From NCBI GenBank assembly GCA_022402525.1, contig JAKRSB010000126.1:1-64000 (forward strand): a stretch of DNA of 64,000 nt. Reading direction: 5' to 3'. The DNA comes from Thermosynechococcaceae cyanobacterium MS004 (GTDB lineage: Bacteria; Cyanobacteriota; Cyanobacteriia; Thermosynechococcales; Thermosynechococcaceae). The position numbers were made by a program, and so were the translations under genes. Shown here in pieces: positions 39,369-45,452 of the stretch (within the stretch, counting starts at the first letter, position 1; each line of letters opens with the position of its first letter). The notes beneath the pieces are model-generated. The model had not been told where the DNA came from, did no database searches, and was given only the letters and a program-made list of their open reading frames with translations.

Positions 39369-40887
<1,519 letters not shown>

Positions 40888-41485: not shown

Positions 41486-44440
41486 TTATCGGTGAAGAAT
41501 CTGCTGAAGACGACGGCTTTCCATTTCCAGGACGCGACGGGCAAAATCGCGATCGCGCGCTAATAGATCATCAAAGGCATCAACAGGAATCGCTAAAATG
41601 CGCGTGGGTTGAGCCGTTGCCACAATCGTGCTGGTCTGCTGAGCGTGGGAGAGTACCTCTAGCTCATCCAGTACCTGACCCGGCACCAAGTCTTGAACCA
41701 AGCTTTGATCCAAGTCTTGATCCAAGTCTTGATCCAAGTCTTGAGTTGTCATGCTGGGGTCAGCAGCCGTTGGGGTAATCTGAGTTTGGTCACTCTGAGT
41801 TTGGGTACTCTGAATGTGAGCACTCCCCTCCATGAGTAGCAGGAGTTCTCGGCAGGTATCACCTTCTTCTGTAATCAATTGCTGAGGCTGATAAACCTTT
41901 ACTGTGGCAAGATTCGCCAAGTCAATCAGTGTTTCACTGTGGATGCCGCCAAAAAAGTCACTGTTCGATAGGTAGACTAACTTTTCTAGGGTCGTAAAGG
42001 GCGCTAGACCCTCAGTTGCTTGAGTGGCTGGGTCGAGAATGGTTTTGGCAATCTCCTGCACTAGCGGATTAGGTTTGGGTTTTGCGGCAAGCTTCTGTTT
42101 TGCTCGCTCTTGACCTCGGTTTGGATCAAGCCTGTACAGCATAAAGAGGCTAACGCCTTGAATGAGCGGGTTAGGTTCAAAGGCTAGGGCATCCAACTGA
42201 GTGGCAATCTCACCCAAGGACAATGTCAGAGAGCAGGCGGCAGGAATTTCGGCAGGCTGGGTTAAGAGGTTCAGGAGGTCTGGGTGAAGCCGCTGGTGCC
42301 AGCTTGAGGGGCTGGCCCGTCGCTGGGCACTTTCTGCCAAGATGTCTTGCAAAACGCCTGGAGAGAGTTGCTCAAGGGCACGGGTGATAGAAAGTGCAGG
42401 TGACTCAGTATCATCGGTGGGCGCGGGTTCTTTGCTCAGATGCTCAATGATTTCGAGTAGCCCTGTCACGAGTAGCTGCTGTTTATTCAGAACGGTGGTT
42501 CGGAGCAGCGCCAACAGATCTCCTTGATTTTGGAGCAAAGGCTGATTGAGGGCATGGTAGCGCTGAATCAGATTCTCTAATTGGTGCAGCAATACCTCAG
42601 CACGATGAACGATAACGGCAGTCGGGTTCAGGTTATCTAAGATTTCTTGTTCTTCCCGCTGGGTAATGGAATATTCTCGCCGGAGTAGGGTTAGGGTTTC
42701 GGACTCCTGAACAACAGAGGTTTCCGTGGGATTGCTAGAGTTTATTTCCTGTTGCTGAAGCATCAGCATTCGCTCTAAGGCTTTACGGTAGCCCGTCAGA
42801 CGCACTAGGTTTTCCCGCGAACGCTGCCGATTGGGATCTAATAAGTCTGGGTCTTCTACCCCCAGTTGTTCGAGGACTTTTCGGTGTTCATCTTCGCTAA
42901 TGTCTAGCTCTGAGCGCATTTGCTGCAAGACTTCTAGACTACTGGCGGTGTTGACATAGCCTTCTTCCAAGGCCTCTCGCAATACGCCTTTGTAGGCTTC
43001 GTGGCGTTTTTCTTGGGTAAATCCCGGCAGTACCTTGGCTAAGACATAGACTTCATCGGTGGTCAGGTTTTCGAGCGATCGCCCTTCTACAAACTGCGCC
43101 ACATTCAGCGCAAGGCGACTCAGTTGTCGCCGGAGACGACTGGCTAATCCTTCACGGGCGTAGCGGTCTGGATTCCGTTGCCAGGTGCGGTATAGCCAAA
43201 GGGTGCTCAGTCCCACAATCAGACCTTCGTAAAAAAATTGCAGCGATAGCGGCATTAAAAGAATTAGGGGCCGCCCTGCAAAAATGAAAAAGAAGTTAAA
43301 CACACCAAACGTGCAAACGGTAAAAATCCGGTGCTGGATCATGACGGGTGTGATGACGACCTGCGTGCGATTCAGGGTGGTCAAAATCTTGGACTCTATG
43401 CCTTGCCCCAGGAGGTAGCCCGTGACGCTAAATAACCCCAACGTGAGGGGCACAGCCACAACTTTAGGCACGGGAATTGGCGTATTGAAGAGGTATAGGC
43501 CGGGATTGAGGAGAGACTCTCGCAGGTTTTCTTGGTGGGCCCATGCTCCAGAAAAATAGTAGTCCCAACTGCCTGCATAGAGGTAGTAGTAGCAAAAGTA
43601 GCCCACGACTAGACCCACATAGCCGTAGTACAGCACCTTTTGATTGGCTTCGGTGACGCTATTCCAGTAGACTCGCTCGGCATCAATATCAATGCAGGGG
43701 TTTTGGCAAGCCACACAGGCGCTTTGCTCTTTACCCTCATCTGTAACCGTCCGACACATGGACTGGGTAATTTGCTGATCGCCAATGTGGGCTTTACTCC
43801 CAAGGAGAGCGTTGGGTTCACTATAAATGCTCTGGACTGGAGCCATGGGGCAAAAGTATTGGCACCAGGATTTACCGCCGTAGAGATAGCCCACGGCGAT
43901 CGCTCCTGCAATCGTGAGGCCAAACCAAGCGGCCAGCGCCAAGCGGTCAGCGTTAATCAACAATATACGGGCGCATAATCCCAAGTACAGCAGCCCAAAC
44001 TGAAGGTATTGGTAGTTCCGCCCTAGCCAAGAACCTGGTTTGACCTTCACCAATTCATAGCGCACCTTTCCTGTTGTAGAATTCTGACGCTTAACTTGAC
44101 GCTGCCAGCCTAGCGCGCGCGGAATTTGTGAGAGAAACGATAGCGGACAAATTCGCCGCCATAGCTCATGGCCAAAAATCAGCAAAATAAAAATTGAACT
44201 GGGCACCACGATGCCCCAAAAGATCGTAGTTCCCAGGGTATAGGGCTGCTCTTTTAGACAAACCCCCTGCACTTTGACACAAAGGCTAGGGTCAATGCGC
44301 AGCGGACTCCAGGTATTTTCTGGTTCGGTGAGACTAGGCGAAAAGGGGTCGTAAAAAAGTGAAGCAATCAGAAGCAGCCAGCCGCTGGTCAATACCCAGC
44401 GAGCAAGATGCATCTGTCGTTCTGGAATTTGGCCGAACAT
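41486..44440 (-). CDS. Membrane polyferredoxin fused to a cyclic-nucleotide-binding domain
   Basis: 984 residues. The N-terminal 420 form a multi-span membrane domain with cysteines like NapH/CcoG/NosR-type 4Fe-4S proteins: ICPLSF (Cys98), SWCQYFCPMAPVQ (Cys193, Cys197), Cys229 and CVACQNPC (Cys242, 245, 249). A long soluble helical region (about 430-830) includes a part resembling a tellurite-resistance-like or scaffold bundle; I do not recognise it. The C-terminus (about 835-975) is a cNMP-binding barrel (ITEEGDTCRELLLLMEGSAHI to VDELEVLSH-like). It is interrupted by a Gln/Thr/Asp-rich insert with repeated Asp-Leu-Asp-Gln units. This suggests a redox protein gated by cAMP or cGMP; function unproven. 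Confidence 0.8.
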   Translation of the reverse strand: MFGQIPERQMHLARWVLTSGWLLLIASLFYDPFSPSLTEPENTWSPLRIDPSLCVKVQGVCLKEQPYTLGTTIFWGIVVPSSIFILLIFGHELWRRICPLSFLSQIPRALGWQRQVKRQNSTTGKVRYELVKVKPGSWLGRNYQYLQFGLLYLGLCARILLINADRLALAAWFGLTIAGAIAVGYLYGGKSWCQYFCPMAPVQSIYSEPNALLGSKAHIGDQQITQSMCRTVTDEGKEQSACVACQNPCIDIDAERVYWNSVTEANQKVLYYGYVGLVVGYFCYYYLYAGSWDYYFSGAWAHQENLRESLLNPGLYLFNTPIPVPKVVAVPLTLGLFSVTGYLLGQGIESKILTTLNRTQVVITPVMIQHRIFTVCTFGVFNFFFIFAGRPLILLMPLSLQFFYEGLIVGLSTLWLYRTWQRNPDRYAREGLASRLRRQLSRLALNVAQFVEGRSLENLTTDEVYVLAKVLPGFTQEKRHEAYKGVLREALEEGYVNTASSLEVLQQMRSELDISEDEHRKVLEQLGVEDPDLLDPNRQRSRENLVRLTGYRKALERMLMLQQQEINSSNPTETSVVQESETLTLLRREYSITQREEQEILDNLNPTAVIVHRAEVLLHQLENLIQRYHALNQPLLQNQGDLLALLRTTVLNKQQLLVTGLLEIIEHLSKEPAPTDDTESPALSITRALEQLSPGVLQDILAESAQRRASPSSWHQRLHPDLLNLLTQPAEIPAACSLTLSLGEIATQLDALAFEPNPLIQGVSLFMLYRLDPNRGQERAKQKLAAKPKPNPLVQEIAKTILDPATQATEGLAPFTTLEKLVYLSNSDFFGGIHSETLIDLANLATVKVYQPQQLITEEGDTCRELLLLMEGSAHIQSTQTQSDQTQITPTAADPSMTTQDLDQDLDQDLDQSLVQDLVPGQVLDELEVLSHAQQTSTIVATAQPTRILAIPVDAFDDLLARDRDFARRVLEMESRRLQQILHR

Positions 44441-44504: not shown

Positions 44505-44880
44505 TTAGCCCACATCGTCATGGGCAAAACGGTTGTACAGAAAGTCGAGGGCATCGTTGCGGAGTTTGTAGTATTGCGGGTCTTCCATAATCCGAGCGCG
44601 ATCGCGGGGTCGAGCAAAAGGAATGGTCATAATCTCGCCCACCTTGGCGGCGGGGCCATTGGTCATCATCACCAGGCGATCGGCGAGAAACAATGCCTCA
44701 TCGATATCGTGGGCGATCATTCAGTACCTTACAGTGATGGTCGTTCCAGATTTTGAGCAGCTCTTCCTGCAGATCCTCTTTGGTGATGGCATCCAGCGCG
44801 CCAAAGGGTTTGTCCAAAATCAGGACTTCAGGACGGATGGCTAGGGCACGGGCGATCGCCAGAGACTGACTGGCAATAGG
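44505..44880 (-). pseudogene. Degraded NrtD/CmpD-type ABC transporter ATPase
   Basis: The minus strand shows QSLAIARALAIRPEVLILDKPFG then, after one extra base near 44728-44731, the frame shifts to MIAHDIDEALFLADRLVMM and the family's end NRFAHDDVG. Walker A and the signature loop are missing, and the Walker B glutamate is replaced by Lys (LDKP for LDEP). It matches the C-terminal 120 residues of nitrate (NrtD) or bicarbonate (CmpD) importer ATPases; these two cannot be told apart here. It is clearly non-functional. Confidence 0.85.
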
Positions 44881-44916: not shown

Positions 44917-45018
44917 TTAAAGGTCAGACTCCAGAGATCGGCCTTGTCTGAGCACAAAAGAAAAAATCAAAAGTCCGAAGTAGCCTGTAATCACGATGGG
45001 CAACACAAGTTCAAACAT
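44917..45018 (-). CDS. Putative 33-residue single-span membrane protein
   Basis: An ATG at 45018 opens a 33-codon frame with a short acidic N-terminus, one hydrophobic helix (LVLPIVITGYFGLLIFSFVL) and a polar, charged tail (RQGRSLESDL). AAGAG lies about nine bases upstream of the start. The layout is that of low-mass subunits of photosystems, cytochrome b6f or NDH-1, but I cannot name the family with certainty. Neighbours are the ABC ATPase remnant and a spacer of about 430 bases with no other gene seen. Confidence 0.5.
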   Translation of the reverse strand: MFELVLPIVITGYFGLLIFSFVLRQGRSLESDL

Positions 45019-45452
45019 GGGGAAACTCTTTTAGTAAGGGGGAAGGGTTAGTTCAAAGGCTCGTACTTAGTGACATTGATGTTTTCAAGAAAAATCTCAA
45101 TAAACATTGATTTCAAGAATCTATCTGAACTTAGCCAACGAAACCTGTCTTGACTCTATTATGCTCAAAGTCCCTTTTCTGAGTCGCTTTAGGCAATTGA
45201 GCTTTAAATACTGAATTGATAGTATCTTGTAATTTAGATAGATAAAAGCCTAATTTTTTAATCTATTTAATAGATATCTTCTATTAAAAATAAAATTTCC
45301 TACAGCCACTCAGTCGTTTGAGGTTCGGATGAACAGGTCACAAGCGATAACGCTGCGAGCCGCTGTTTCGGGGTATGGTGTATGGGTTTCCATGACGATG
45401 GGCTGGCAGTCCGTTAAGCTTGGGTCGTAAGCGGGGAGGGAGGAATAAGCGA

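Follow-up and report, generated by a model that had tools for sequence, protein, structure and literature searches.

The gene described here, CNB, lies in the window (the whole stretch of 64,000 nucleotides that was analysed) and encodes a protein that is best read, from its sequence and its surroundings, as a member of the low-carbon bicarbonate-uptake regulon carrying a CNB-like tail that is blind to cyclic nucleotides. We put forward, as a tentative proposal with a reasonable chance of being right, that it is a membrane Fe-S redox protein with its functional place in high-affinity bicarbonate uptake (by BCT1/CmpABCD and, secondarily, SbtA), where the tail would serve as an arm for docking or switching and transporter activity would be matched to the redox state.

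The single chain of 984 residues announced in the preliminary description was confirmed as an intact minus-strand ORF (Table 1), present as a single copy in the whole genome and with a start conserved among homologues (MFxQxPERxMH). The domain make-up described there also stood: Pfam places Fer4_5 at residues 171-205 (27.0 bits, gathering cut-off 22) and cNMP_binding, PF00027, at residues 910-963 (37.3 bits, cut-off 27.5), and both are present in 20 of the 20 homologues scanned. The helical middle, which had been left unassigned, is HEAT-like, being all-helical in the AlphaFold model (58 family sequences as input, mean pLDDT 76.5) and containing Pfam HEAT_2 in 3 of 20 homologues; the membrane part modelled alone reached a pLDDT of 80.9 and a pTM of 0.81. 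An ENT domain, under the cut-off in the window protein and weak in 6 of the 20, was set aside as chance or a helical look-alike. The 12-bp repeat coding DLDQ units looks like a strain-specific insertion, produced by replication slippage in a tolerated loop.

Homologues were sampled in 386 cyanobacterial genomes of the phylum, 50 of which contained relatives, and by a search in named genomes that gave 80 loci. Within the searches made, relatives were seen solely in cyanobacteria, at 45-75% identity to the window protein, and by this sampling the family is widespread there. The same domain order, which it had been suggested to look for elsewhere, is kept across cyanobacteria at that level of divergence, which by comparison of the sequences is more than chance. 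The gene has stayed intact and constrained, as indicated by a dN/dS of about 0.08 against the nearest relative (dS being saturated). A membrane part followed by a regulatory tail is a known kind of architecture, of which the protein would be a new variant with a new functional link.

Table 1. Location of the features and loci discussed; positions without a locus name refer to the window
Feature	Location	Strand	Evidence or remark
CNB gene (984-aa polyferredoxin-type membrane / HEAT / CNB-like protein)	41486..44440	-	intact ORF
Predicted membrane domain, residues 1-420, ~8 TM helices, Fer4_5 motif	43181..44440	-	Pfam, cysteine conservation, AlphaFold, loop charges
HEAT-like all-helical middle, residues 426-815	41996..43165	-	AlphaFold secondary structure; HEAT_2 in 3/20 members
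CNB-like domain, residues 816-984	41489..41995	-	Pfam cNMP_binding, profile search vs PDB, Foldseek
Phosphate-binding cassette position without Arg, residues 924-941, LDELEVLSHAQQTSTIVA	41618..41671	-	alignment
12-bp tandem repeat coding DLDQ-type units, loop of CNB-like domain	41686..41744	-	absent from relatives
sbtA, Na+-dependent bicarbonate transporter, 598 bp downstream of CNB	39763..40887	-	Pfam Sbt_1
sbtB, PII-like, C-terminal CGPEGC	39369..39701	-	Pfam P-II; sequence
Uma2-type gene; after sbtB in the window, directly after CNB in L031	38267..38833	-	alignment with L031
cmpD pseudogene, last ~120 codons, one frameshift near 44721	44506..44868	-	tblastn, blastn; L031 alignment
cmp promoter/leader remnant, three collinear blocks	44953..45285	-	blastn to region upstream of intact cmpA
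15-bp palindrome ATCTATTWAATAGAT	45261..45275	.	genome-wide pattern search
cmpD-CNB same-strand loci	L031, L033, L049, L052, L056, L066, L093, L122, L124, L129, L134, L140		
MinD/NUBPL-like ATPase loci	L095, L096, L099, L101, L102, L103, L107		
EF-hand paralogue	L148:7084-9252	-	Pfam EF-hand_7
EF-hand paralogue	L149:874-3054	+	Pfam EF-hand_7
EF-hand paralogue	L152:6131-8575	-	Pfam EF-hand_7
FHA + CNB paralogue	L153:6828-9995	+	cassette Arg present
FHA + CNB paralogue	L154:6144-9449	-	cassette Arg present

In the membrane domain, the seven cysteines listed in the preliminary description (C98, C193, C197, C229, C242, C245 and C249) are invariant in the 98 full-length homologues, and C54, C61 and C156 are kept in 97 of the 98. 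By the charges counted in the loops, the seven are predicted to face the cytoplasm and the C54/C61 pair to lie in a periplasmic loop; C156 lies in TM3. The loops bearing the Fe-S cysteines have low confidence in the AlphaFold model, as expected of a model without cofactors. The protein resembles the polyferredoxins of NapH, CcoG (RdxA, FixG) and NosR type in its TM helices, its CX3CP motif, its CX2CX3C-type cytoplasmic cysteine cluster and a Fer4_5 above the gathering score. Unlike NapH and CcoG, it has the invariant C54/C61 loop, extra TM helices and the long HEAT and CNB-like tail, and its scores against the curated models are low, 12.3 bits for CcoG (TIGR02745, cut-off 316.7) and 9.2 bits for NapH/MauN (TIGR02163, cut-off 213). 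The redox role rests on motif conservation, because no significant match to the membrane domain was found among solved structures, by sequence or by fold. A membrane Fe-S redox protein is the best reading, predicted from motifs, and at that level the Fe-S character first attributed to the membrane part was upheld.

The neighbours of CNB were counted over 85 loci with readable flanks. CNB lies directly downstream of cmpD on the same strand in 12 loci (Table 1; in L031 and L056 the contig ends within the cmp operon), and cmpABCD lies within 10 kb of it in three more, divergent in L058 and L133 and convergent in L132. Linkage to cmp reaches 14 of the 85 loci, or 7 of the 19 whole genomes with both genes, far above the roughly 0.6% per genome estimated for random placement, the counts not being independent. 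Mapped on the family tree, the cmp label takes at least eight state changes, spread over multiple branches; therefore, the link is not one inherited accident. By this recurrent position after cmpD, CNB is, in terms of gene order, a putative member of the cmp operon. CmpA was found in 19 of 23 sampled genomes with the subfamily and in 66 of 363 others, kinship being ignored. Membership is not obligatory, since cmpABCD often occurs without CNB (the 66 of 363 sampled genomes without the subfamily) and CNB sometimes without CmpA (4 of the 23 subfamily genomes); in 68 of the 85 loci neither cmp nor sbt genes are neighbours. A nitrate transporter as the neighbour was ruled out by the scores of the neighbouring substrate-binding protein, CmpA, 629 bits to the bicarbonate-transporter protein 2i48 versus 431 to NrtA (2g29), although NCBIfam gives nitrate-type names to subunits B, C and D. 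The protein shares an operon or neighbourhood with the CmpABCD, SbtA and SbtB systems and, in the window genome, a leader sequence; unlike their components, it is by sequence no transporter subunit, and none of the papers found lists it among the cmp genes.

As had been described, CNB adjoins sbtA and sbtB, which lie downstream on the same strand, identified by Sbt_1 and P-II; the gap of 598 bp contains a promoter-like match that is not above chance. This pairing, whose conservation had been suggested as a check, is rare: sbtA is found within 2.5 kb of CNB in 3 of the 85 loci (the window, L042 and L044), each a singleton on the tree and one beside a truncated sbtA, and sbtA-sbtB within 10 kb in one of 49 whole genomes. 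We accordingly rejected sbtAB as a conserved partner of CNB. The link to inorganic-carbon uptake held up, with a change of partner: since the sbt pairing is rare and the neighbour in the genus-mate is cmpD, the link goes through the cmpABCD operon and not through sbtAB. The truncated sbtA (L044:1270-2178) lacks an internal part and the C-terminus and looks decayed. In L066 and L093, sbtA-sbtB, cmpABCD and CNB all lie within about 12 kb; elsewhere, cmpABCD and sbtA-sbtB form one cluster (L151:4191-12222) in a genome whose CNB relative is located apart from it.

The window itself keeps traces of the cmp association. Its nearest relative, L031, of the same genus according to genome groups and 73-75% identical, has the order cmpD-CNB-Uma2, and the alignment runs continuously from the tail of cmpD through CNB and is then found again in Uma2, beyond sbtAB. 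The cmpD pseudogene is 88% identical, over 356 bp of DNA, to the intact cmpD of the same genome (contig C94), and the leader remnant consists of blocks 45285-45201, 45126-45075 and 45020-44953. The natural reading of these alignments is that the window holds the remnant of a duplicate cmp operon, from which cmpA, cmpB, cmpC and most of cmpD would have been lost while the leader and CNB stayed. With a cmpD fossil and a cmp leader upstream of CNB, the sbtAB neighbourhood looks secondary here and the cmp link older in the window lineage; sbtAB may have been either gained in the window or lost in L031.

In the 4.9-Mb genome the palindrome ATCTATTWAATAGAT has exactly two occurrences, one upstream of CNB and the other upstream of the intact cmpA. 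Its pattern was derived from those same two sites, which makes its presence at both a given; that it is absent elsewhere, and perfectly preserved inside a block of 72% identity, suggests that it is functional. The sequence TTA-N7-TAA is found in both cmp leaders and, being AT-rich and unspecific, was not counted as a clean CmpR site. The window leader also contains a small ORF of about 30 amino acids with a hydrophobic stretch (44920-45018, minus strand; MFELVLPIVITGYFGLLI.. / MLECVLPSVIAGYFGLLI..), which is found again at L146:5539-5625 and has a possible counterpart before cmpA in Prochloron (L033, about 155 bp upstream of cmpA).

Cyanobacterial bicarbonate transporters are activated by light within seconds, and the suspicion of a redox signal goes back to the 1980s, its mediator being unknown; their light activation has been tied to electron transport or redox, with signal and mechanism 'still elusive' (PMC8438413). 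In E. coli native BCT1 shows no activity, which suggests that additional factors may be required (PMC11349869, PMC13249358), an inactivity that hampers its use in crops (PMC11349869). SbtB binds CmpC, whose C-terminal domain senses nitrate (PMC13249358). In the open-access literature we found no description of CNB, of a cmp-linked Fe-S protein or of such a fifth cmp gene, which is weak evidence of absence. Encoded by an additional gene in the BCT1 operon, a conserved membrane redox protein would be a concrete candidate for a missing factor, and a testable one for the link between the redox state of the cell and carbon uptake. In the mechanism that we tentatively favour, the cytoplasmic [4Fe-4S] clusters would exchange electrons with a soluble donor, for example ferredoxin, the HEAT and CNB-like tail would be no cAMP receptor but an arm for docking or switching, directed to the transporter or to a regulator, and the protein would help to fit bicarbonate-transporter activity to the cell redox state at low carbon. 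Direct regulation of the transporter is a step that we infer, since a shared regulon would yield the same gene order.

A shared regulon is also what would be seen if the protein, when the electron chain is over-reduced at low carbon, passed surplus reductant to an acceptor in the membrane or periplasm (quinone or the C54/C61 dithiol) and left the transporters untouched, because low carbon would then be the common trigger. An operon or promoter common with cmpABCD, a pair of nearly invariant cysteines on the predicted periplasmic side and the presence of CNB in some genomes without CmpA are all consistent with such an electron valve; however, the valve would not account for the size and conservation of the cytoplasmic HEAT and CNB-like tail, neither an acceptor domain nor a partner gene was seen, and we consider it somewhat unlikely. 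Taking our preferred reading, regulation of bicarbonate uptake, to its full extent, the protein would be the missing redox sensor itself, with Fe-S clusters that read the photosynthetic electron supply and a HEAT and CNB-like arm that switches BCT1 and, in this genome, SbtA on and off, one of a modular family with varied tails; in this extended form the proposal is unlikely. Distinctly unlikely is a membrane oxidoreductase handling Fe-S or metals (a reductase or maturation factor resembling CcoG) that has nothing to do with carbon and whose cmp link would be regulon hitch-hiking. Fer4_5 in all the members scanned, the weak CcoG similarity and a NUBPL/MinD-like ATPase gene just upstream in Crocosphaera-type loci point in that direction, but the CcoG and NapH models are far under their cut-offs and no oxidase, copper or nitrate-reductase gene recurs beside CNB among the loci examined.

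The remaining alternative, that of the preliminary description, in which cAMP or cGMP gates the redox flow and the messenger is common with SbtB, would be consistent with the CNB fold, with the retained E926 and with the canonical Arg-bearing cassettes of the distant paralogues L153, L154 and L158, but is very improbable given that the cassette Arg is absent from all aligned subfamily members, where another conserved motif stands in its place, and that the sbt pairing is rare and derived here. The fold is genuine, with a Foldseek match to the CNB-B domain of PKA RI-alpha (on the target, TM-score 0.75). True receptors have a phosphate-binding cassette of the form FGELALxxxxPRxATV. The window protein has LDELEVLSHAQQTSTIVA at that position, with Q at the place of the Arg (residue 935), which is never Arg in 58 of 58 aligned homologues; the Gly preceding the Glu is replaced by Asp in 87 of 98 homologues, and E926 is the Glu that contacts the ribose. 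A loss of cNMP-binding residues, named at the outset as what would speak against gating, is therefore what the alignment gives; the second such condition, concerning the sbt pairing, likewise went against the model, and cAMP/cGMP gating was rejected for the window subfamily. The subfamily has its own conserved motif at the cassette site, LDELEVLxHSxSENTIVA, and a site conserved in its own way indicates that the domain is conserved for something; cAMP or cGMP is unlikely to be bound in the usual mode, and another ligand may be bound.

CNB-homology domains without cyclic-nucleotide binding occur, for example, in EAG/hERG channels and in CRP relatives of the FNR/NtcA type. The window tail resembles them in having a CNB fold without the cassette Arg and differs from them in its attachment to a membrane Fe-S protein and in its motif, DELEVLxHSxSENTIVA. 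The top Foldseek matches were SLC9C1, HCN and SthK, with which the protein shares the order of membrane domain, cytoplasmic helical part and C-terminal CNB; the match comes from the CNB part alone (query TM-scores of about 0.1), and unlike them the protein is no channel or exchanger. The label 'cyclic nucleotide-binding protein' should not be taken to mean that cAMP is read here; that automatic reading, however attractive, is unsupported. One paper lists Synechocystis slr0593 as a 'cAMP binding membrane protein' (PMC3516471), a candidate name only for the CNB family.

Paralogues illustrate a modular variation in which one membrane core, as recognized by sequence, is joined to different tails (EF-hands, FHA with an Arg-containing CNB, and others). 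Those with the same membrane Fe-S core ending in EF-hands (Pfam EF-hand_7) suggest a calcium-linked version of the protein. Paralogues of about 1100 amino acids carry an FHA and CNB tail (L153, L154, L155 and L156), with Tyr at the cassette Arg position in L155 and L156. L157 and L158 join the membrane core to a CNB alone, the cassette of L158 having the Arg, and L147 is a membrane core without any tail. The Arg-bearing cassettes of L153, L154 and L158 make it possible that cyclic nucleotides may have a role elsewhere in the family, outside the window branch.

Other genes accompany CNB in particular groups. In genomes of the Crocosphaera/Cyanothece type (Table 1), the genes before it code for a P-loop ATPase that is MinD/NUBPL-like and for a small protein with weak similarity to MarR; NUBPL-type ATPases elsewhere carry Fe-S clusters. 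A prokaryotic diacylglycerol kinase gene is located directly downstream on the same strand in L034, L039, L042 and L056 (DAGK_prokar by Pfam in L056), and response-regulator and histidine-kinase genes adjoin CNB in one clade (L046, L048, L051, L059 and L080). Neighbours of the NhaP antiporter, DAGK and two-component types recur, mostly within single clades.
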